Positions 4,134-17,663 of a stretch of DNA of 26,186 nucleotides are shown in pieces. Within the stretch, counting starts at the first letter, position 1. Every line of letters begins with the position of its first letter. The notes under the pieces were generated by a model that ran no database searches, was not told the origin of the DNA, and saw only the letters and a list, made by a program, of their open reading frames with translations. Both the position numbers and the translations under genes were made by a program. This DNA is from a virus: IMG/VR virus record IMGVR_UViG_3300018481_000065, positions 1-26,186 of that record. One strand, written 5' to 3'.

Positions 4134-4808
4134 CTACGGGACCAAGATGCGCTTGTTGATCCCTGTTGCCGAGGTCACTGTCCACAGGCGGAGGGAAGGA
4201 TCGATCCCCCGCTTGCGAACCTGGACCACGTGGGCGCCGCAACGCTTGCCGCGCATGTTCACTCGAACGAACCTGCTCCGGACGACCTCTGAACTGATCG
4301 CCCGCGCACGATCGACCTTCACTCGGACAGTCGACTCATCGCGCATCCTCGACGGCAGGACGAGACGCGCCCTCTTGCGAATCGACTTGCAGCGCCGATT
4401 GCCGTTGGTGATGTTCACGTTGACCGTTGTGTCCTGAGTGACGTTGATCGGCAACCCACCTGGGCCAACAATGGTTCCTTCGGGTCCTGGGTCACCTGGA
4501 GGTCCGGGCGGTCCCGCGGGACCAGGTGCGCCGTTGCAGACGTAGAACACCTCTTCCTCGGGCTCCGGCGGATTCTCTGTCTTCGTTGGTGCGCCTCTGT
4601 GCTTGTGGATGACAGTGATCTTCACTCCACCGAACTCGCAGTTCTCTCCCGCGGGTTCTGACTCGACGGTGATGGTGTCCCCGCCATGGCAGAAGTGTGG
4701 GTTCCCCTGACACTCCGGCGGTGGTAGCACTGCCGATGCTGTGGACGACAACACGCCCACGGCCAACACGCACACGAACGCGACTGCCGCAGCAATCGTT
4801 CTGGTCAT
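4134..4808 (-). CDS. Secreted collagen-like protein
   Basis: A 224-residue protein with a clear signal peptide: MTRT, a hydrophobic core AAAVAFVCVLAVGVL and an Ala-x-Ala-type site near ASA. It is followed by a Cys-containing region (ECQGNPHFCHGG, ENCEFGG), a short Gly-X-Y collagen-like stretch of about eight triplets (GAPGPAGPPGPPGDPGPEG), and a basic Arg-rich C-terminal domain with two Cys. That C-terminal domain resembles the short beta-rich repeats common in secreted proteins of Solirubrobacterales/Thermoleophilia. The start has a good ribosome-binding site (AGGAGGGG). The gene stands alone between two hairpins, so it is probably its own transcription unit, and it sits among replication genes rather than structural genes. 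It may act on the host surface or be a cargo gene from the host. Function unknown. Confidence 0.7.
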   Translation of the reverse strand: MTRTIAAAVAFVCVLAVGVLSSTASAVLPPPECQGNPHFCHGGDTITVESEPAGENCEFGGVKITVIHKHRGAPTKTENPPEPEEEVFYVCNGAPGPAGPPGPPGDPGPEGTIVGPGGLPINVTQDTTVNVNITNGNRRCKSIRKRARLVLPSRMRDESTVRVKVDRARAISSEVVRSRFVRVNMRGKRCGAHVVQVRKRGIDPSLRLWTVTSATGINKRILVP

Positions 4809-5901: not shown

Positions 5902-8496
5902 TTATGCCTCTTCGGTGTCCGCTCGCGCGATCAACTCGAGAGTCGTCTCATCCCAGTCGTACTTGCCCATCTGGCCCCACTTGGGAGCGACGTCTGCGTC
6001 TGAGGCGAAGGGGATGCCTGTGTCGAACGGCAGGTTGTCTTCCATCTCTTCCTTGACGATCGCGAGGACTTCATCGATCAACGCGCGAGGGCACTCAATG
6101 AGGATCGAGTCGTGAACGGTCGAGACGATGTGCGCACCTTCTGGGAGGCGCGCGTGGATCCGAATCAGCGCCGACAGGGTGAAGTCGCTCGCCGTGCCCT
6201 GGATCGGCGTGTTCACTGCCGCGCGTCCTGCAGCACCCGAATCCCAGATTGGGATCAACGGGAAGCGGCGCTTGCGACCTGTTGGCGAGTGGACGATCTG
6301 CTCCTGGTAGACGAGCACCTGCTGCTCTTCGATCCACTTGTTGAACGTGGGCCATCCTCGCAACATGCGATCGAAGAACTCCTTGACCTCTTCCTCCGAC
6401 CAGCGAGTCCCGCCGTTGTCCTCGATGTAATCCATCTCAGGACCGTTCGCGAGCGACCCAGCACCTCGCTGGTACATGACGCCGAAGTTGCAGCACTTTG
6501 CCATGTACCGCTCGTACTTCGACGCCTCCTTACGTGTCTTGTGGAACAGCGCCCAGGTCACCTCCTGGTGCACGTCCCGCCCCTCGATGAAGACCTGCTT
6601 GAACTCATCATCGTCTGACAACCACGCCGCGACTCGCAACTCGAGCTGGGAGTAGTCGGCCTCGAGCAGCACGTTGCCCTCGTCAGCGATGAAGCCGTTC
6701 CGTACCTCGATCCCGGTGTGGGATGAGTCGGGAATGTTCTGGAGGTTGGGTCCGTCAGACGAGAGGCGACCTGTCGCGGTCCCGTGGAGGTTGAAGTTGC
6801 CTCTGATCCTGCCGTCCACATCGACGCGATCGAGCATGCCGTTGACGTAGGTGCCGGCGTTCTTCGTGAGGTTGCGGTACTCGACTATGTCATAGAGGAC
6901 CTGCTTGTGCTCTGGGACAACGCGCGCCAGAGATTTGAGGACCGCCTTCGACGTGGGCCCCTCACGTTGCTTGCCGCGCCTCGAGGTGAACGTGGTCGAC
7001 TGACGACCCTTGCGCTTCTTCCTTGCCTCCGCCAGCGCAGCACGCCAATCGCCGTCAGCGTTCTTCTTGACGACTGCCATCTCCTTCTCACCAAACGGCA
7101 ACCCGAGCGACCCGTTGTCCGATCCGTACACGTACTCCGAAACCTGCTTCGGTGATCCTGGGTTGAAGTCGGGGATGCCTGTCTTGCGCTGAAGGCGTCC
7201 AAGGATCTTGTTCGACCGCGCTGCCAGTTCAGCGGATGCCTCTTCGTAGAAGTCAACATCGATGAGGATGCCACGGTGTTCGATGTCTGCGAGAGCGATG
7301 CACCCTGGGATGAGGTACTCCTCGTAGAGGTCAAGCAGTTCGGTGTCCTGCATCGCCTCGTTCCAGAGGTCCGGGAACAGTCGCGCCGTGTAGTACACGT
7401 CGAGGGCGAGGTACTGGTGGAGGTTCTTGCGCAGTCGTCTCCGCTCCTGCTCGTCCGCTTCCTTCCACTCGGTGATGAACTTGCTCATGTTGATCCCGTA
7501 GTCGATCGCGTCATAGCGGGTCCGGGCGAGGTTCTCGAGAACGTGTGACGCGAACCGGCCCATGGGGCGCTCGTCCATCGTGTAGTGGAGGAGCATTGTG
7601 TCGTGGATGTTGTTCGGCGCGTACGGCAATCCTTCGCGCTCGAATGCCGTCTTGAAGAACTGGAGATCGAACTTGGCGTTGTGGAACACGACCTCCCACT
7701 CGCCGTTGAGCAGACGCTGGATTCGCCGCCAAGGTTTCTTGCGCTGGAGGAGCATGTCGTCAATGACGATCGCCGTGCCCTTCGTCGGCGCCGTGTTGAC
7801 AGCGAACCCAGCAGCAAGGATGCCGTCCCTGATCGGTGAGAGGCCCAGCGTCTCGAGGTCGCACGACATGGTCGTCTGCTCCTCGAGGTAGTCGAATGCT
7901 TCGTCTGCTTCCTTCACCGACTGTGGGACCCACAGGTCCACGTCCGGGAACGGTTCACGTCCGTCCGTCGCAACGAACTTGGCGAGGTCCTGCTCGAAGT
8001 CGCGGTACCAGTCGGGCGCCGCTGTGAGGAACCCACCTGAGAACGTCGCCATGATGTTCATGCCCCACGCCGAATGCCACCGTCCCCTGCACTTCGTGAT
8101 CGGGAGGTTGCGCTCCGCCGACATGAGCGCGGAGAAGCCCACGTTGCCGAGACAGAGGACCTTGGTGCACTCTGCTGCTTTCAACTCCTTGACGAGGCGC
8201 GGACGGCACGACAGCATGGCGCGCTTCATCATCGCCTCCTTCTTGTAGTTGGGGCGACAGTTCAGCGCAGAGGTCAGGTACACCTGGTCGAGGTCGATGC
8301 CGGCACCCTCGAGGCATCGCTTGATCAGGTCACCTGGACCTCCACGCTTCCCAGTGAAGAACGCGTCCTTGGTTGCCATCTCGACCTCGGGGAAGTCGAA
8401 CACGATCGCGACCTCGGCACGATCGAGCGGACGAGACACGACCGCGGGCCTTTCGGTTGGGCACCCACGGCATGTCTCGCATGCTGCTTCGATCAC
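5902..8496 (-). CDS. polA: Family A DNA polymerase with N-terminal UDG-like domain
   Basis: The replicative or repair DNA polymerase, 864 residues, in three parts. Residues about 1-175 resemble family 4 uracil-DNA glycosylases: Cys9, Cys12, Cys80 and Cys97 match the spacing of a 4Fe-4S site, and YLTSALNCRP matches the family's 'vyiTNvvkCRPP'. The catalytic GEAPG motif is replaced by FDFPE, so glycosylase activity is doubtful. Residues about 205-390 are a DnaQ-like 3'-5' exonuclease with D213 and E215 (CDLET), FHNAKFD and LALDVYY. The polymerase part has motif A DYSQLELR from 614, an O helix with R663, K667 and F671, and motif C VHDS at 794-797. The DNA-binding motif ATGRLSSDGPNLQNIP is also present. 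It starts with GTG overlapping the dpdA-like stop (GTGA) and is the last gene of the long operon. Confidence 0.95.
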   Translation of the reverse strand: MIEAACETCRGCPTERPAVVSRPLDRAEVAIVFDFPEVEMATKDAFFTGKRGGPGDLIKRCLEGAGIDLDQVYLTSALNCRPNYKKEAMMKRAMLSCRPRLVKELKAAECTKVLCLGNVGFSALMSAERNLPITKCRGRWHSAWGMNIMATFSGGFLTAAPDWYRDFEQDLAKFVATDGREPFPDVDLWVPQSVKEADEAFDYLEEQTTMSCDLETLGLSPIRDGILAAGFAVNTAPTKGTAIVIDDMLLQRKKPWRRIQRLLNGEWEVVFHNAKFDLQFFKTAFEREGLPYAPNNIHDTMLLHYTMDERPMGRFASHVLENLARTRYDAIDYGINMSKFITEWKEADEQERRRLRKNLHQYLALDVYYTARLFPDLWNEAMQDTELLDLYEEYLIPGCIALADIEHRGILIDVDFYEEASAELAARSNKILGRLQRKTGIPDFNPGSPKQVSEYVYGSDNGSLGLPFGEKEMAVVKKNADGDWRAALAEARKKRKGRQSTTFTSRRGKQREGPTSKAVLKSLARVVPEHKQVLYDIVEYRNLTKNAGTYVNGMLDRVDVDGRIRGNFNLHGTATGRLSSDGPNLQNIPDSSHTGIEVRNGFIADEGNVLLEADYSQLELRVAAWLSDDDEFKQVFIEGRDVHQEVTWALFHKTRKEASKYERYMAKCCNFGVMYQRGAGSLANGPEMDYIEDNGGTRWSEEEVKEFFDRMLRGWPTFNKWIEEQQVLVYQEQIVHSPTGRKRRFPLIPIWDSGAAGRAAVNTPIQGTASDFTLSALIRIHARLPEGAHIVSTVHDSILIECPRALIDEVLAIVKEEMEDNLPFDTGIPFASDADVAPKWGQMGKYDWDETTLELIARADTEEA

Positions 8497-9320
8497 TTGA
8501 GGATCAGGTTGTTACGTGCTGCTGCTGCGAAGACCTCGACGTTGCGCTGGGCAAGGTCAATCACGTCCTCCTGCAGCGGCTCATCGAAGTACCTCTCATC
8601 GCGCCGTGGGTAGTCGGGAACCTTGCCTCCGGGCTCGAGGAGGATCTTGTTCTTCGCGTACACGAACGGTTTGGCACTGTCCGTTGATCGCACCCAGGGG
8701 TACCGACGCGCAACCGCTGCCGTCTGCCAGAGGTCCGTGGGCCACCCGAGGAGGTGAAAGTCGACTCGAGGTCGTGTCGCTTTCACCGAGGTGAGCGATG
8801 AGTCGAACAGGGATGGGATGCCCCCGGGCCAGTTGTAGTAGTCCTTCGACACACCGATCACTGGCTCATCGAGGTTCTGCTCGATGCAGTAGTGATCGTG
8901 CAGGTTGAGCAACGAGCGGAGGCAGTACGTCCATTGAAGGCGTCCTGTGCCCTGTGGGACGTACATCAGTCTCGGGCGTTCTGCGCGGGTGTACTTCGAC
9001 TGCCCCTCCTTGGTCTCGAGATACCTGAGTGTCCTCCTTGCTGCCTCGACTGTCGCGCGAGCGTCGAACAACACGTCCGGCACGACTACCTCGTTCACAC
9101 CAACGTAGGATGCTTGCTCGAGGAGGTCCTCCATCTTGTTCCCAATCCCGTTCTCATGAGCTGAGTTGTCGAGGATCAGGTAGTCGCCGGCGCGCGATCG
9201 ACGCGCGTAGTAGTCGAGGTATCCGTCCTTGTCGAAGAGGTGCGAGAGGAGGAGATGGATTCCTGGACCTGTGGCGAAGCGGTCGAGATCAGGAACGGGG
9301 GGAATCAGCGCTGAAAGCAT
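8493..9320 (-). CDS. dpdA: DpdA-like transglycosylase (7-deazaguanine insertion into DNA)
   Basis: A TGT-fold protein of 275 residues. Family-like motifs: LILDNSAHENG, where D51 takes the place of the Asp in the DSG motif of tRNA-guanine transglycosylases; VVVPDV at 78-83; LMYVPQG; IGVSKDY; FHLLGW; and RSTDSAKPF, which matches the 'HLLG...S.DSskPF' end of DpdA/TGT-like proteins. Phage DpdA proteins exchange guanine in DNA for preQ0 or a derivative. The placement with folE, queD, queE, queC and queF makes DNA rather than tRNA the likely target. The start at 9320 is preferred over an ATG at 9362 because GAGGAGG lies a few bases upstream. It overlaps the end of the DUF6378 gene by 32 bases, and its stop overlaps the polymerase start. 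Which DpdA subfamily it belongs to cannot be told by eye. Confidence 0.8.
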   Translation of the reverse strand: MLSALIPPVPDLDRFATGPGIHLLLSHLFDKDGYLDYYARRSRAGDYLILDNSAHENGIGNKMEDLLEQASYVGVNEVVVPDVLFDARATVEAARRTLRYLETKEGQSKYTRAERPRLMYVPQGTGRLQWTYCLRSLLNLHDHYCIEQNLDEPVIGVSKDYYNWPGGIPSLFDSSLTSVKATRPRVDFHLLGWPTDLWQTAAVARRYPWVRSTDSAKPFVYAKNKILLEPGGKVPDYPRRDERYFDEPLQEDVIDLAQRNVEVFAAAARNNLILK

Positions 9321-9624
9321 CCCGTTCCTCCTCGTCACAGATTTGGCGAGCGATCTCGACATACCCTTCTATGTCGTCGAGGTTATCGACAAGGTGCCCA
9401 CCGTGCGACTCGCGGAGGACTTTGAGCGACACCATGATCATCGTTGCTTGTAGTGCCGTGCACTCGCATCCGAGTATCGCTTCGATCATTCCTGAGAAGC
9501 GGAGCATGTTCGGCACGGGGGACCCGTACGTCTTCGCTCGTTCCTTGACGATCGCAGCACCCTTCGATTGAAACTCAGGAGGACCAACCACTACCTCGAT
9601 CTCGTGACGATGGTCGCCGTTCAT
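9289..9624 (-). CDS. DUF6378-like protein
   Basis: A 111-residue protein with the pattern I know from DUF6378 phage proteins: IVKERAKTYGSPVPNMLRFSGMI near the middle and ATMIMVSLKVLRE followed by LVDNLDDIEGYVEIA at the end. The family is common in actinobacteriophages and resembles small all-helical nucleotide-handling proteins, but no function is established to my knowledge. The ATG at 9624 overlaps the queC stop (ATGA), which fixes the start. It lies between queC and dpdA, so a link to the modification pathway is possible but unproven. Confidence 0.6.
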   Translation of the reverse strand: MNGDHRHEIEVVVGPPEFQSKGAAIVKERAKTYGSPVPNMLRFSGMIEAILGCECTALQATMIMVSLKVLRESHGGHLVDNLDDIEGYVEIARQICDEEERDAFSADSPRS

Positions 9625-10367
9625 AGGACCACCTTCGCTGCCGCGTCCGGGTCCATCTCTGCGAACGCGAACCACCCTCGCGCACGTTCCTGGCACGCGC
9701 CACACTTGCCGCAACCGTACCCCCAAGGGAACCGCGCCGATCGATCACCGTGGTAGCAGGTGTGGGTGTGCTCCACGACGATCCCTAGAACCCCGAGCGA
9801 CGCCGCGAGAGCGAACGTCTCTGCCTTGCTCTTGTGCAAGAGGGGCGCGTGAACGTCAACGAAGTCCTCGTCCAGAGCGAGGCGCAGAGTGCGTGCTGCT
9901 GACTTGACGAACACCTCCCGGCAATCTGGGTACCCAGCATCGTCCGTTTGGCACACGCCAGTGACGAGGTTGTAGTGCCCCAAGGTCGCGCCGTACGCCG
10001 CCGCGAGGGTGAAGAACAGCAGGTTGCGTCCTGGCACGAACGTCGAGGGCAGGTTGTGCTCCTCGGCGTATTTGTTGCCAGTCCCCTCCGGGTTGACGTT
10101 GACTGAGATGTCCTTGTTGGTCAACGCCGCTGCTCCGAGCGCATGGAGGGCAGGCACCGCGAGGATGCGCAACGGCGCCACGCCGAGCATCTCGCAGATC
10201 TCCTCTGCCTTCTCGAGTTCGATCTCATGCCGCTGGGAGTAGTTGAACGCGACCGGGTACACGTTGTCCTTGCCCCAGAGGTCGATCGCCCACGCAAGGC
10301 ACGTGGTCGAATCCTGACCCCCTGAGTGCAGGACGACAGCACCAGTGCCGTCAACGTCGTGTCTCAT
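9621..10367 (-). CDS. queC: 7-cyano-7-deazaguanine (preQ0) synthase QueC
   Basis: Makes preQ0 from 7-carboxy-7-deazaguanine with ATP and ammonia. The N-type ATP pyrophosphatase motif SGGQDSTTCLAW is at 15-20 and onward. The zinc site is complete: C204 and the cluster CGKCGAC (C219, C222, C225), followed by the usual QERARGWF. The segment FVPGRNLLFFTLAAAYG is typical of QueC. Its 248 residues are close to the usual length. Stop and start overlap the neighbouring genes by four bases on both sides. It is a stand-alone QueC; no Gat domain (as in Gat-QueC) is attached. Confidence 0.95.
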   Translation of the reverse strand: MRHDVDGTGAVVLHSGGQDSTTCLAWAIDLWGKDNVYPVAFNYSQRHEIELEKAEEICEMLGVAPLRILAVPALHALGAAALTNKDISVNVNPEGTGNKYAEEHNLPSTFVPGRNLLFFTLAAAYGATLGHYNLVTGVCQTDDAGYPDCREVFVKSAARTLRLALDEDFVDVHAPLLHKSKAETFALAASLGVLGIVVEHTHTCYHGDRSARFPWGYGCGKCGACQERARGWFAFAEMDPDAAAKVVL

Positions 10368-10579
10368 GCTTCCTTCTCCTTGTCAACGACTACCTCGTAT
10401 GACCCACCGCGGAACGACACGGTGAGCCATGCTGGCAGTTCTTGGTTGTGGGGATCACTGTGCATTGACACGACAGTGACTCCCTCTAGTTCACGCCACC
10501 CTGCTGTCTCGTTGAGGTCGATGTGCCCTTCGACCTTCATGCCTCCTGTTGCTGGATCTGACTTGAGGCGAACCTTCAC
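10364..10579 (-). CDS. Small hypothetical protein
   Basis: A 71-residue, probably beta-rich protein (MKVRLKSDPATGGMKVEGHI..., ending VSFRGGSYEVVVDKEKEA). Four-base overlaps with queC downstream and with the 88-residue gene upstream support that it is real. No family recognised. It lies inside the 7-deazaguanine cluster between folE and queC. Confidence 0.6.
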   Translation of the reverse strand: MKVRLKSDPATGGMKVEGHIDLNETAGWRELEGVTVVSMHSDPHNQELPAWLTVSFRGGSYEVVVDKEKEA

Positions 10580-10842
10580 CGACTCATCTCCACAGCGCGG
10601 TCGAGGTGTAGCAACGCCTCGGCGGCGTAGGGAATGATCTCCAGAGGTGCATCGAACGGTTCCCGGGAGTCGGCGTGTTGGACGAGTCGTCCGTCTTCAC
10701 CGAGGGTCATCCCGCCGATGGTCCAGAGATCATCGTCGTTCTTCGACACCTTGAGGTACATGTTGAAACCAGCACCGTTGCCCTGAATAGGGAAGAACGG
10801 AATCGCTTCAACGCGAGGTCTAACTACTGCTCGTTCGGTCAT
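10576..10842 (-). CDS. Small hypothetical protein in the 7-deazaguanine cluster
   Basis: An 88-residue protein starting MTERAVVRPRVEAIPFFPIQ, with segments FNMYLKVSKNDDDLWTIGGM and EIIPYAAEALLHLDRAVEMS. The ATG at 10842 has GGAAGGAG upstream and overlaps the folE stop by one base. It contains no cysteines or obvious catalytic motif. No family recognised. Its place between folE and queC may be chance, since small accessory genes are scattered through the operon. Confidence 0.6.
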   Translation of the reverse strand: MTERAVVRPRVEAIPFFPIQGNGAGFNMYLKVSKNDDDLWTIGGMTLGEDGRLVQHADSREPFDAPLEIIPYAAEALLHLDRAVEMSR

Positions 10843-11462
10843 CAGGAACTCCTTCCGATCATGCGGAAGAACTCTTCCTTCTCGTTCTCCGCGTTCGTGT
10901 TGAACAGCCCCCGTACCGATGAGGTGACTGTCTTCGTCCCGGGCGCTTGCACGCCACGGATCGTCATGCACAAGTGCTCTGCCTCGACCACGACGATCAC
11001 TCCACGCGGTTCGAGATGCTCCTCGAGCGATTCAGCGATCTGGTGAGTGAGTCGTTCTTGGATCTGAAGGCGCCTTGAGAACACGTTGACGAGGCGAGGG
11101 ATCTTCGACAGGCCCACCACTGACGCACCTGGGAAGTACCCCACGTGGGCGTACCCCACGAACGGAACGAGGTGGTGCTCGCAGGTCGAGGTCACTGGGA
11201 TGTCTTTCACAGCAACGATGCCGTCATAGTCATCCGCTGGGAACTTGCGAAGGATGGCCTCAGGGTCGGCGTAGTACCCGCAGGTGAGTTCATCGACCCA
11301 CATCTTGGCAACACGTTCCGGCGTGTCTTCGATCCCCTTGCGGAGGTGCTTCGGGTCGAGGTGGACCACCATGTTCTCCACCGCTTCACGGATCCTGTTC
11401 GTACGTTCGAGTGTCTCGTCCGGGTTACCCCAGCGGGAGAACTCTCTATGGTCCTTCGTCAT
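10842..11462 (-). CDS. folE: GTP cyclohydrolase I
   Basis: Converts GTP to 7,8-dihydroneopterin triphosphate, the first step of both folate and 7-deazaguanine synthesis. The 206-residue protein has the zinc ligands and catalytic motifs of the family: STCEHHLVPF (C94, H97), GLSKIPRLVNVFSRRLQIQE, and EAEHLCMTIRGV with C165, followed by TVTSSVRG. The N-terminal DTPERVAKMWVDEL is also typical. It is followed one base later by the small 88-residue gene and preceded by queE with a one-base gap. In this context it feeds QueD rather than folate synthesis. Confidence 0.95.
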   Translation of the reverse strand: MTKDHREFSRWGNPDETLERTNRIREAVENMVVHLDPKHLRKGIEDTPERVAKMWVDELTCGYYADPEAILRKFPADDYDGIVAVKDIPVTSTCEHHLVPFVGYAHVGYFPGASVVGLSKIPRLVNVFSRRLQIQERLTHQIAESLEEHLEPRGVIVVVEAEHLCMTIRGVQAPGTKTVTSSVRGLFNTNAENEKEEFFRMIGRSS

Positions 11463-11463
11463 G

Positions 11464-12231
11464 TCAGTGTCCTAACTCGTTCCCCCAGAGGAGAACGTGG
11501 TATTGCGATTGGACAACGGCATGGTGCAGCGCCGGCGTGCGCAACACCTCCTCGGTCAACCAGAGAGATCGCTCGAGCAAGTCGAGTCGAACATCGTCCG
11601 GGGCGCGCGTATCGATGCGCTCAGGATTGCCGACAGTGCGGCCAGCATCGTTGCCAGCGGATAGGTACAGCGGACAATCGAAGTGCACTGTCTTTTTGAC
11701 CCACTCGAGGTCGTCGCGATCGAAGATCACGACCTTGGAGAACATCCAATCGTCTGGAAGGCCCCTGAGGTCGCGATGTGTCATAGCGGCACCGTAGAAC
11801 TTCTCCACCGCGTTCCAATCGACCTTCATCTTCGCCGAAGGAGGCTTGGGTGAGATGCACAAGCGGTCGACTGACTTCAACCAATCGTTCCACCGTGACC
11901 CCTGGGTCTCGACTGCGACCTTGAATCCCATCTCCTGGAGTTCGAGCACAACCCATCTAAGGTCGTGTAAGGCGGGGTTGCCACCAGTGATGATTACCCA
12001 GGGGACCCGCCCCAAACGGAAGACACGCCCCGCGATCTCGAACGACGAGAGGCGCTCGTTGTGGCGCACCTCCGCGGGAAGGACAGCGTGGGGCGTGTCG
12101 CACCAGTCGCACTTGTAATCGCATCCGCCAAAGCGAACGAAGTGAGCAGGACGTCCCTGATCAACGCCCTCGCCCTGCAGCGTGGGACCGAAGATCTCAG
12201 CAACGGGGAACAGGTGCTCGCGTTCGATCAT
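11464..12231 (-). CDS. queE: 7-carboxy-7-deazaguanine synthase QueE (radical SAM)
   Basis: Ring-contracts 6-carboxy-tetrahydropterin to 7-carboxy-7-deazaguanine, using S-adenosylmethionine and an iron-sulfur cluster. The 255-residue protein has EIFGPTLQGEG at 12-22, the radical SAM motif CDYKCDWC (C37, C41, C44), ITGGNPAL for SAM binding, VETQGS, and CISPKPPSAKMK, all in the usual order for QueE. The start overlaps the queD stop by four bases. Length is slightly above the usual 210-245. Confidence 0.95.
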   Translation of the reverse strand: MIEREHLFPVAEIFGPTLQGEGVDQGRPAHFVRFGGCDYKCDWCDTPHAVLPAEVRHNERLSSFEIAGRVFRLGRVPWVIITGGNPALHDLRWVVLELQEMGFKVAVETQGSRWNDWLKSVDRLCISPKPPSAKMKVDWNAVEKFYGAAMTHRDLRGLPDDWMFSKVVIFDRDDLEWVKKTVHFDCPLYLSAGNDAGRTVGNPERIDTRAPDDVRLDLLERSLWLTEEVLRTPALHHAVVQSQYHVLLWGNELGH

Positions 12232-12686
12232 GTGATTACTGCTGCTTCTGCCCAGGACGTGGGCGTCTCCCAGAGGCGGATCGATAGCCCGATGTGCTTC
12301 TCAGCGAACTTCTCCTCACCGAAGTGGGTTACCAACTGATGATGGAACTCATCCGCGATCCACCGCGCAAGGTTCTCGCACGTAGTCAGTGGCGTGTCCA
12401 GGTTCCTCGCAACGATCCAGGTGCCAGGCAACTTGCCCTTCAGCGTCTCGTTGAGGTTCTCGTGCTCCACGTACGGTTCGATCCGCTGCTTGTAGATCTG
12501 CTTGAGGATCTCGAAGTCGAACAACATGCCCTCGTCCGAGTCTCCGGTCGCCTCGTTGACGACACCGACCACGCGCACCTCGAGCTTGTACGAGTGCCCG
12601 TGCATCCTTCGGCACTGACCTTCGTGGTGTGGCAGGAAGTGCGCTGCGTGGAACGTGAACTCCTTACAGATCTGGGTTCCCAGCAT
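12228..12686 (-). CDS. queD: 6-carboxy-tetrahydropterin synthase QueD
   Basis: Converts dihydroneopterin triphosphate to 6-carboxy-5,6,7,8-tetrahydropterin. The 152-residue protein begins MLGTQICKEFTFHAAHFLPH. The zinc ligands are H16, H29 and H31, and the catalytic Cys is C25 in GQCRRMHGHSY. The C-terminal active-site Glu lies in RLWETPTSWAE. The ATG at 12686 is chosen because homology starts there. It lies inside the last codons of queF (23-base overlap), so the two are translationally coupled. Confidence 0.93.
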   Translation of the reverse strand: MLGTQICKEFTFHAAHFLPHHEGQCRRMHGHSYKLEVRVVGVVNEATGDSDEGMLFDFEILKQIYKQRIEPYVEHENLNETLKGKLPGTWIVARNLDTPLTTCENLARWIADEFHHQLVTHFGEEKFAEKHIGLSIRLWETPTSWAEAAVIT

Positions 12687-13107
12687 CGGGCTCCTCCTCC
12701 GTGTAGTACCCCCACGACTTCGTGTGGATGGTGATCCCGCCTCGAGGCTTCTGAGTGACCTCGCAGTACACGGGCGCTTTGATTGCCTTGGCGCAGTCGT
12801 CAGCAATCAACGCTGCGAACGCCTCGGCAAAGATGCCTTTGTCGCGGAACGAGTGGAGGTACAACTTGAGTGACTTCGACTCGATCAGCAACTCTGACTC
12901 GGCACCGACCACGATCTTGACCGTGTACCAATCCGGTGCGCTGGTGATGGGGCAGTTCGCCGTGACCTCGTCTGACTCGTAGACCGTCTCGTAGTGCCGT
13001 TCGGGTGCGTTGAACACGTCGAGGGCACCCCCACGATCAGACACCTTCTGTCCGATCGCAGGGGCCTCGCCTTCAACCCCCGACCGAATGGTCGAGGCCT
13101 CACTCAT
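12664..13107 (-). CDS. queF: preQ0 reductase QueF (YkvM-type), possibly altered
   Basis: QueF reduces the nitrile of preQ0 to the aminomethyl group of preQ1 with NADPH. The 147-residue single-domain protein has the nucleophile C52 and the acid D59 in CPITSAPD, and the full QueF signature ESKSLKLY at 76-83 followed by HSFRDKG. PRGGI is near the end. One departure: where Bacillus subtilis QueF has FHE (H96, E97), this protein has FAE, so the catalytic His is replaced by Ala94 while E95 is kept. The intact NADPH signature argues against the archaeal amidinotransferase QueF-L, but the change could alter activity. The start overlaps the DUF669 stop (ATGA). Confidence 0.88.
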   Translation of the reverse strand: MSEASTIRSGVEGEAPAIGQKVSDRGGALDVFNAPERHYETVYESDEVTANCPITSAPDWYTVKIVVGAESELLIESKSLKLYLHSFRDKGIFAEAFAALIADDCAKAIKAPVYCEVTQKPRGGITIHTKSWGYYTEEEPDAGNPDL

Positions 13108-13625
13108 CGCATCGACCGCTTCCGCGTGCCGGTGCTCTTCTTGCGACCGTTGCCGGACGACTTCGCCTTCGCCCTGCTGGGCTTCTTGGGCTCGTCGTCC
13201 TCGTCAGCGGACAGGAGTTGGTTGACGCGGTTCTGCTCCTTGCCCTCGTACATCTCGTTCTCGACCACTGCGATCGCAGCAACGCCGTCGAGGTCGGGAT
13301 CGGTGAGCAGCGGACCTTCCTTGGGAGTGATGTCCACATCGTCCTCCCAGTCGAGCGCGAAGTCCTCTTCCTCACCCTCGATGATGCCGAGTGACATGAA
13401 GATGTCTTTGAGGCGGAACAGCGCCCGCGGTGACAACGAGGTAATCATCCAGAGGCGTTGCCCCTCGTACTCGTCGTCTGTGATCTTCATCTCCCAGTTG
13501 AGGTAGTCGTTGTCGGACGACTTCGACTCCCTCACTTCGATCCGTTCGATGATCACCGGGTAACGACCCTCAGGGACGGGCTCGAACCCGCCCTCGATCT
13601 CTGCGAAGTTGATCTTGGTACCCAT
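13104..13625 (-). CDS. DUF669-like, putative single-strand DNA-binding protein
   Basis: A 173-residue protein starting MGTKINFAEIEGGFEPVPEG, followed by YPVIIERIEVRES and LNWEMKITDDEYEGQRLWMITSLSPRALFRLKDIFMSLGI. This is the pattern of DUF669 phage proteins, which sit beside recombination ATPases and are thought to bind single-stranded DNA. The middle is acidic and the last 25 residues are very basic (KPSRAKAKSSGNGRKKSTG). It follows the Sak4-like ATPase directly. The start is set by GAAGGAGAAGGA upstream of the ATG at 13625. Confidence 0.75.
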   Translation of the reverse strand: MGTKINFAEIEGGFEPVPEGRYPVIIERIEVRESKSSDNDYLNWEMKITDDEYEGQRLWMITSLSPRALFRLKDIFMSLGIIEGEEEDFALDWEDDVDITPKEGPLLTDPDLDGVAAIAVVENEMYEGKEQNRVNQLLSADEDDEPKKPSRAKAKSSGNGRKKSTGTRKRSMR

Positions 13626-17270: not shown

Positions 17271-17663
17271 CTACGAGTAGCGCCCGTACCCGCGGGTCGA
17301 CTGCGGGTCTGCCATCGCAACGGCGATGATGATGAGCAGTACGCCGATTGCTCCGATGATCCCGAGCCACATTCCCCAGGATGCCATCCCGCGGCCTGTG
17401 ACCTGACCGCCCGACTCATCGATCTCCTTCCGCGCCTTGGCGCCGAACACGATCGCGAGGATTGAACCGATGCCCCAGATCCAGAGGAGCGATAGGACCA
17501 ATGATGCGATGGCGTACCCGGACGTCCGAGCGTTCGCCACTGCGTTGATCGGTGAGCGGTTGTCCGTCCACTTCGACCCGTCCCAGTAGCGCTTGGTCGT
17601 AGGATCGCTGGGGTCCTCGTACCAACCTGGGTTCGGGGCACTGACTGTTGCTACGTCACTCAT
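17271..17663 (-). CDS. DUF2510 membrane protein
   Basis: A 130-residue protein with an N-terminal DUF2510 motif, PGWYEDPSDPTTKRYWDGSKWT (P12 to T33). A DUF4190-like part with two transmembrane segments follows, one from about IASLVLSLLWIWGIGSILAI and one from about WLGIIGAIGVLLIIIAVAM. DUF2510 is nearly confined to Actinobacteria and their phages, making this one of the best host indicators in the window. It likely sits in the host membrane with DUF2510 in the cytoplasm. Function is not established. The start follows AAAGGGAAGGA in the recurrent leader. Confidence 0.85.
   Translation of the reverse strand: MSDVATVSAPNPGWYEDPSDPTTKRYWDGSKWTDNRSPINAVANARTSGYAIASLVLSLLWIWGIGSILAIVFGAKARKEIDESGGQVTGRGMASWGMWLGIIGAIGVLLIIIAVAMADPQSTRGYGRYS

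Follow-up and report, generated by a model that had tools for sequence, protein, structure and literature searches.

An operon in the DNA analysed here, a window of 26,186 bases that is one whole IMG/VR virus record (IMGVR_UViG_3300018481_000065), very likely encodes a self-contained DNA-modification pathway, in which preQ1 would be made and then exchanged into the phage DNA. Modification with 7-deazaguanines is a known disguise of phage DNA from bacterial DNA-cutting enzymes, and this phage would be a further member of the group that uses it. The operon joins the genes for preQ0 synthesis and QueF with a gene whose product belongs to a family that lacks annotation and escapes both Pfam and NCBIfam; this family was placed on the branch of transglycosylases tied to complete replacement of G.

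Layout of the operon and genes for preQ0 synthesis

A previous sequence-only reading of the window had described queF, queD, queE, folE, queC and the gene for a 275-residue protein as one overlapping operon. Start and stop coordinates confirmed this. All six genes lie on the minus strand at the positions given in that reading (Table 1), and translational coupling extends from the DUF669 (SSB-like) gene at 13,625 through the DNA polymerase A (PolA) gene, which ends at 5,902, neighbouring genes overlapping by 1-32 bp or being separated by a 1-bp gap. The contig is probably a 26-kb fragment of the phage genome.

Table 1. Operon genes, with their window coordinates and the evidence for each assignment
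Gene or product	Coordinates	Strand	Evidence
queF, preQ0 reductase (preQ0 to preQ1)	12664..13107	-	PF14489, TIGR03139; residues aligned to 4f8b and 33 phage QueF
queD, 6-carboxytetrahydropterin synthase, 152 aa from ATG at 12686	12228..12686	-	PF01242, TIGR03367, motifs
queE, radical-SAM 7-carboxy-7-deazaguanine synthase	11464..12231	-	TIGR03365; CxxxCxxC motif
folE, GTP cyclohydrolase I, first step from GTP	10842..11462	-	PF01227, TIGR00063; motifs
88-aa ORF, ATG at 10842	10576..10842	-	no Pfam match; weak tblastn matches
71-aa ORF	10364..10579	-	no family match
queC, preQ0 synthase	9621..10367	-	PF06508, TIGR00364; P-loop and Zn cysteines
DUF6378 protein, between queC and dpdA-like gene	9289..9624	-	PF19905 (3.7e-12); gene order
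Predicted DpdA-like DNA-guanine transglycosylase, 275 aa, CP220/immuto branch	8493..9320	-	fold model, profiles, invariant residues
DNA polymerase A with 3'-5' exonuclease and N-terminal UDG-superfamily domain	5902..8496	-	PF00476, PF01612, PF03167

The five que/fol enzymes were identified by profile searches with Pfam, NCBIfam and PHROGs. QueC (PF06508, 5.9e-63; TIGR00364, 207 bits), FolE (PF01227, 6.5e-66; TIGR00063, 206.8 bits) and QueE (TIGR03365, 206.7 bits against a cut-off of 206.1) all cleared the curated cut-offs. QueD and QueF fell slightly under their NCBIfam equivalog cut-offs and were strong in Pfam: QueD gave 2e-24 and 85.8 bits with TIGR03367 (cut-off 89.25) and 2.6e-29 with PF01242, and QueF gave 72.9 bits with TIGR03139 (cut-off 86.9) and 4e-14, above the cut-off, with PF14489.

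The expected motifs were found in each of them: CDYKCDWC in QueE, SGGQDS and CGKCGAC in QueC, CEH and HLCM in FolE, CRRMHGH and ENLA in QueD, and CPITSAPD and ESKSLK in QueF. The catalytic residues had been described as intact except one in QueF, and the sole departure was indeed Ala94 of that protein.

The two small ORFs of the operon remained without a family. The 88-aa ORF had zero Pfam matches, and its region gave weak tblastn matches only in two related loci (L001 and L004). The 71-aa ORF was without match in Pfam, PHROGs, NCBIfam and PADLOC. The DUF6378 gene is kept in the close lineage (L001-L005 and L038).

PolA is the next gene of the operon after that of the 275-residue protein and a conserved neighbour of it, standing outside the 7-deazaguanine pathway. 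Its N-terminal uracil-DNA-glycosylase-superfamily domain (PF03167) covers residues about 27-161, and the polymerases of most relatives align over part or whole of this domain. From the shared operon, modification during or just after replication had been suggested; the arrangement shows co-expression with the polymerase, and alone does not time the modification.

Elsewhere in the window, a 224-residue ORF at 4134-4808 contains a collagen-like stretch (GPAGPPGPPGDPGPEG), and a small membrane protein with DUF2510 and DUF4190 domains is encoded at 17271-17663. Small membrane proteins of this type are associated with actinobacteria, which hints at an actinobacterium as the host of the phage. The Rfam search found neither riboswitches nor other Rfam families in the window.

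The 275-residue protein and its transglycosylase branch

The 275-residue ORF starts with the ATG at 9320, upstream of which lies GAGGAGGAA. The protein had no match in Pfam (PF01702 included), NCBIfam or PADLOC, and matched one PHROG, of unknown function. A search of viral contigs with the single sequence gave no relative, whereas an alignment-based search did find relatives. The first family profile was built from tblastn relatives and from contigs found through QueE, and it recovered 48 viral loci. Two family members matched Pfam DUF6610 weakly (E 0.001).

Searching the sequences of solved structures with the family profile yielded no more than a chance match, and the fold was therefore compared through a model. 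An AlphaFold (AF2) model built from 37 sequences, those of the window and of viral contigs, reached a pLDDT of 95.6 and a pTM of 0.92. Its top 12 matches in the PDB were all tRNA-guanine transglycosylases (TGT; probability 1.00, E 6.5e-6), with moderate TM-scores of 0.47-0.56. Matches in a viral structure library included DpdA2 of Vibrio phage nt-1 (R9TGF0), as well as several proteins annotated as queuine tRNA-ribosyltransferase. The protein as modelled has the TGT fold.

Residues D51, G192, S212, D214 and N260 were invariant in 44 family sequences. The stretches LDNSAH, HLLGW and RSTDSAK of the window protein aligned with LDSGAF, HGFGIT and CDSSSW of DpdA1. The catalytic aspartate pair of the TGT family thus appears to be present as D51 and D214; the match to E. 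coli TGT was weak and insufficient alone for assigning it. The TGT zinc site, Cys-x-Cys-x2-Cys, is absent, since the protein has only two cysteines, at positions 133 and 145. A tRNA TGT of the PF01702 type was rejected on these grounds, the missing zinc site and the missing PF01702 match.

Among phage genomes, the family profile found CPT_0056 of CP220 at E 2.4e-15 (98.1% in hhalign), and gave no match in the genomes of 9g, nt-1 and the mycobacteriophages. Direct scores with this profile were 112 bits for the immuto DpdA, 62 for the CP220 protein and 13 for nt-1 DpdA2, while DpdA1 members and E. coli TGT received about 6 bits or less. Profile-profile alignment to the DpdA1 group (9g, EC151 and the mycobacteriophage group) was moderate, 76-91%, with the catalytic motifs in register. 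The DpdA1 profile gave the window protein 2.1 bits versus 236-410 for its members, and this group was rejected. So was DpdA2 (the nt-1 group), to which the protein is related by fold only, with about 2-27% in hhalign to nt-1 DpdA2. The motifs of HVTV-1 gp69 aligned but its score was weak, leaving it a distant candidate only.

By these scores the window protein groups with the CP220 and immuto proteins. The earlier reading had called it DpdA-like, and had named grouping with tRNA-type TGT as the outcome that would speak against this. No such grouping was seen, E. coli TGT scoring -0.1 bits. The DpdA-type identity stood, and the subfamily proved to be neither DpdA1 nor DpdA2. We take the CP220/immuto branch to be the published DpdA3 subfamily; a 2023 paper in Nucleic Acids Research reportedly gave the branch this name and tied it to complete replacement of G. 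CPT_0056 itself would be linked to dADG replacement by homology. In the Campylobacter phages CP220 and CPt10, 100% of dG is replaced by dADG (PMC8306585).

QueF, the predicted base and alternative readings

In the window QueF, the catalytic C52 and D59, the ESKSLK motif and the substrate Glu, E95, are all present. The active-site His preceding E95 is absent: position 94 is Ala in the alignment, where the QueF of B. subtilis (4f8b) and V. cholerae (3bp1) have His. The departure noted in the sequence-only reading was therefore real. It is not damage peculiar to this phage, as 29 of 33 phage QueF lack the His at this position, which is Cys in 22 and His in four. From this comparison the loss appears as a general feature of phage QueF rather than decay in one phage. 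Catalysis by the predicted QueF could be altered, because the usual His is missing.

We propose that FolE, QueD, QueE and QueC would convert GTP to preQ0, which QueF would reduce to preQ1. The DpdA-like enzyme would then act on phage DNA already synthesised, exchanging guanine for the 7-deazaguanine base by way of a covalent aspartate intermediate, with D214 as the predicted nucleophile and D51 as the predicted acid/base. The product would be mainly dPreQ1, possibly with some dPreQ0, and the modified base may serve to block host restriction enzymes.

A variant of this pathway differs only at its end. QueF may act like QueF-L, adding ammonia onto DNA-bound preQ0 to give dG+ (archaeosine), or the route may end mainly at dPreQ0 or dADG. 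We considered this unlikely. QueF and QueF-L have the Cys, the Asp and the thioimide intermediate in common (PMC5485725), the His of bacterial QueF is lacking here, and phage QueF and QueF-L are hard to tell apart by sequence according to Hutinet et al. (PMC6884629). On the other hand, ESKSLK is intact, and the QueF profile scored bacterial (B. subtilis) QueF at 137 bits versus 37 for archaeal QueF-L; on this measure the window QueF does not seem closer to the QueF-like archaeosine synthase than to QueF. Moreover, Dp-1 and HVTV-1, earlier predicted to have QueF-L, proved to carry dPreQ1; the QueF of Dp-1 retains the His.

The genes may instead serve host tRNA, boosting a queuosine precursor during infection, with the TGT-like protein acting on tRNA. 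The grouping of this protein with the phage DpdA-type enzymes and not with tRNA TGT, its lack of the zinc-site cysteines and of a PF01702 match, and the DNA polymerase and recombination genes in the conserved operon all argue against such a role, which we regard as very improbable, even though FolE, QueD, QueE, QueC and QueF with a TGT make up the first six bacterial queuosine steps and Hutinet et al. raised the idea for phages without DpdA. The absence of tRNA-specific downstream enzymes had also been pointed out. Among the scanned ORFs none had a Pfam domain pointing to a later queuosine step, and the window contains no tRNA gene. Slightly less probable still is a route in which the phage polymerase incorporates the bases from ready-made dNTPs and the TGT-like protein does something else. 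This was the earlier proposal for the Campylobacter phages, before their DpdA was recognised, and the operon does end in PolA. However, D51 and D214 are kept in all 44 sequences of the TGT-like protein, no gene for a nucleotide kinase or for 7-deazaguanine ribosyl transfer was recognised in the window, and modification in CAjan requires dpdA (PMC6884629).

The preferred reading therefore remains base exchange in DNA. That the phage DNA is modified, the main claim of the sequence-only reading, is supported by the branch of the transglycosylase, the missing zinc site and the adjacent PolA, and we consider it highly probable. We expect dPreQ1 to be the main base, with fair confidence. The precedent for it comes from other DpdA branches, and not directly from the CP220/immuto branch in the literature read. 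Replacement of "some guanines" had been predicted. The replacement was supported; "some" may understate it, because complete replacement has a precedent on the CP220/immuto branch. Near-complete replacement of G is nevertheless a tentative expectation, on balance doubtful. A transglycosylase of the complete-replacement branch together with a phage-type QueF without the usual His raises a bolder reading, somewhat more doubtful than the last, in which the positively charged preQ1 takes the place of most or all guanines throughout the uncultured lineage, which is high-GC in the window.

Since the contig is a 26-kb fragment, the phage could encode a further tailoring enzyme outside it. A formyltransferase-domain gene (PF00551), considered as such an enzyme, turned up only in immuto; 23 contigs of the window lineage lack it.

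Distribution of the operon and comparison with known systems

In most of the 48 loci the gene order was exonuclease, AAA-domain protein, DUF669, QueF, QueD, QueE, FolE, QueC, (DUF6378), DpdA-like protein and PolA. The DpdA-like gene was nearly always beside preQ0 genes and PolA, adjoining the latter in most relatives, and QueF was present in most loci. The DpdA-like gene is thus linked to the preQ0 synthesis genes in a conserved operon, and the conservation of gene order in many independent contigs indicated that the operon is not a chance arrangement.

QueF was found in about 22 of the 28 lineage contigs searched, 19 over the Pfam cut-off and three more by tblastn. A full route including QueF had been called less usual, which holds among isolated phages, where it is uncommon, but in the window lineage it is standard. 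Several long loci (L062, L068, L069 and L071) lack QueF, so that in sequence comparison it behaves as an optional last step.

The Streptomyces linear plasmids NZ_CP108842 (L084, 6036-8858) and NZ_CP108712 (L085, 6150-8735) carry QueD, QueE and FolE beside a DpdA-like homolog with the catalytic aspartates kept, and QueC is nowhere on either plasmid. The base inserted in these cases may be an earlier intermediate, for instance 7-carboxy-7-deazaguanine. The phage operon, including the DpdA-like gene and PolA, recurs on a contig assigned to a Methanothrix (archaeal) genome bin (L079, 3657-13236), where no que genes were recognised in the vicinity. This contig is probably of phage origin, and the phage perhaps uses host preQ0.

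A large, almost unsampled phage lineage would be added to those with 7-deazaguanine DNA. Most of it pairs the transglycosylase with QueF, which predicts dPreQ1-rich DNA, possibly fully substituted. If this is true, DNA in which natural G is scarce or missing would also bear on sequencing, restriction and nuclease-based defence.

Among known systems, CP220 of the firehammerviruses has a protein of the same branch (CPT_0056) with the catalytic aspartates conserved, and encodes QueC elsewhere in its genome. It differs in its all-dADG DNA and in the position of the gene, amid tail and replication genes without a que operon, and the two proteins are only about 20% identical. In Flavobacterium phage vB_FspM_immuto, a strong profile match annotated as DNA guanine transglycosylase DpdA (QQO91744) has QueD, QueE, FolE, QueF and PolA nearby, a precedent for this branch and QueF together. 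At about 306 aa its QueF is longer, QueC is encoded at a distance, and the PF00551 gene adjoins dpdA. The Bacillus phage BSTP12 group and Weizmannia phage Youna2 have a preQ0 cluster with a homologous protein directly upstream of PolA, but the search of the cluster gave no QueF, and the homologous protein shares only about 26% identity with that of the window.

Mycobacterium phage Funsized and Arthrobacter phage Mufasa8, whose QueF are among the closest isolate matches to that of the window, likewise have DpdA, QueF, QueC, QueD, QueE and FolE in one operon. Their DpdA belongs to the 9g-type (DpdA1) group, and the cluster adjoins a ParB-like gene, not PolA. Dp-1 and HVTV-1 resemble the window in having complete preQ0 genes and QueF, but the transglycosylase of Dp-1 is of the DpdA1 group and that of HVTV-1 would be the distant candidate gp69. 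The DNA of both Dp-1, which has DpdA and QueF, and HVTV-1 was measured to carry dPreQ1; in HVTV-1 about 30% of G is present as dPreQ1, and the DNA resists every enzyme tested (PMC6884629).
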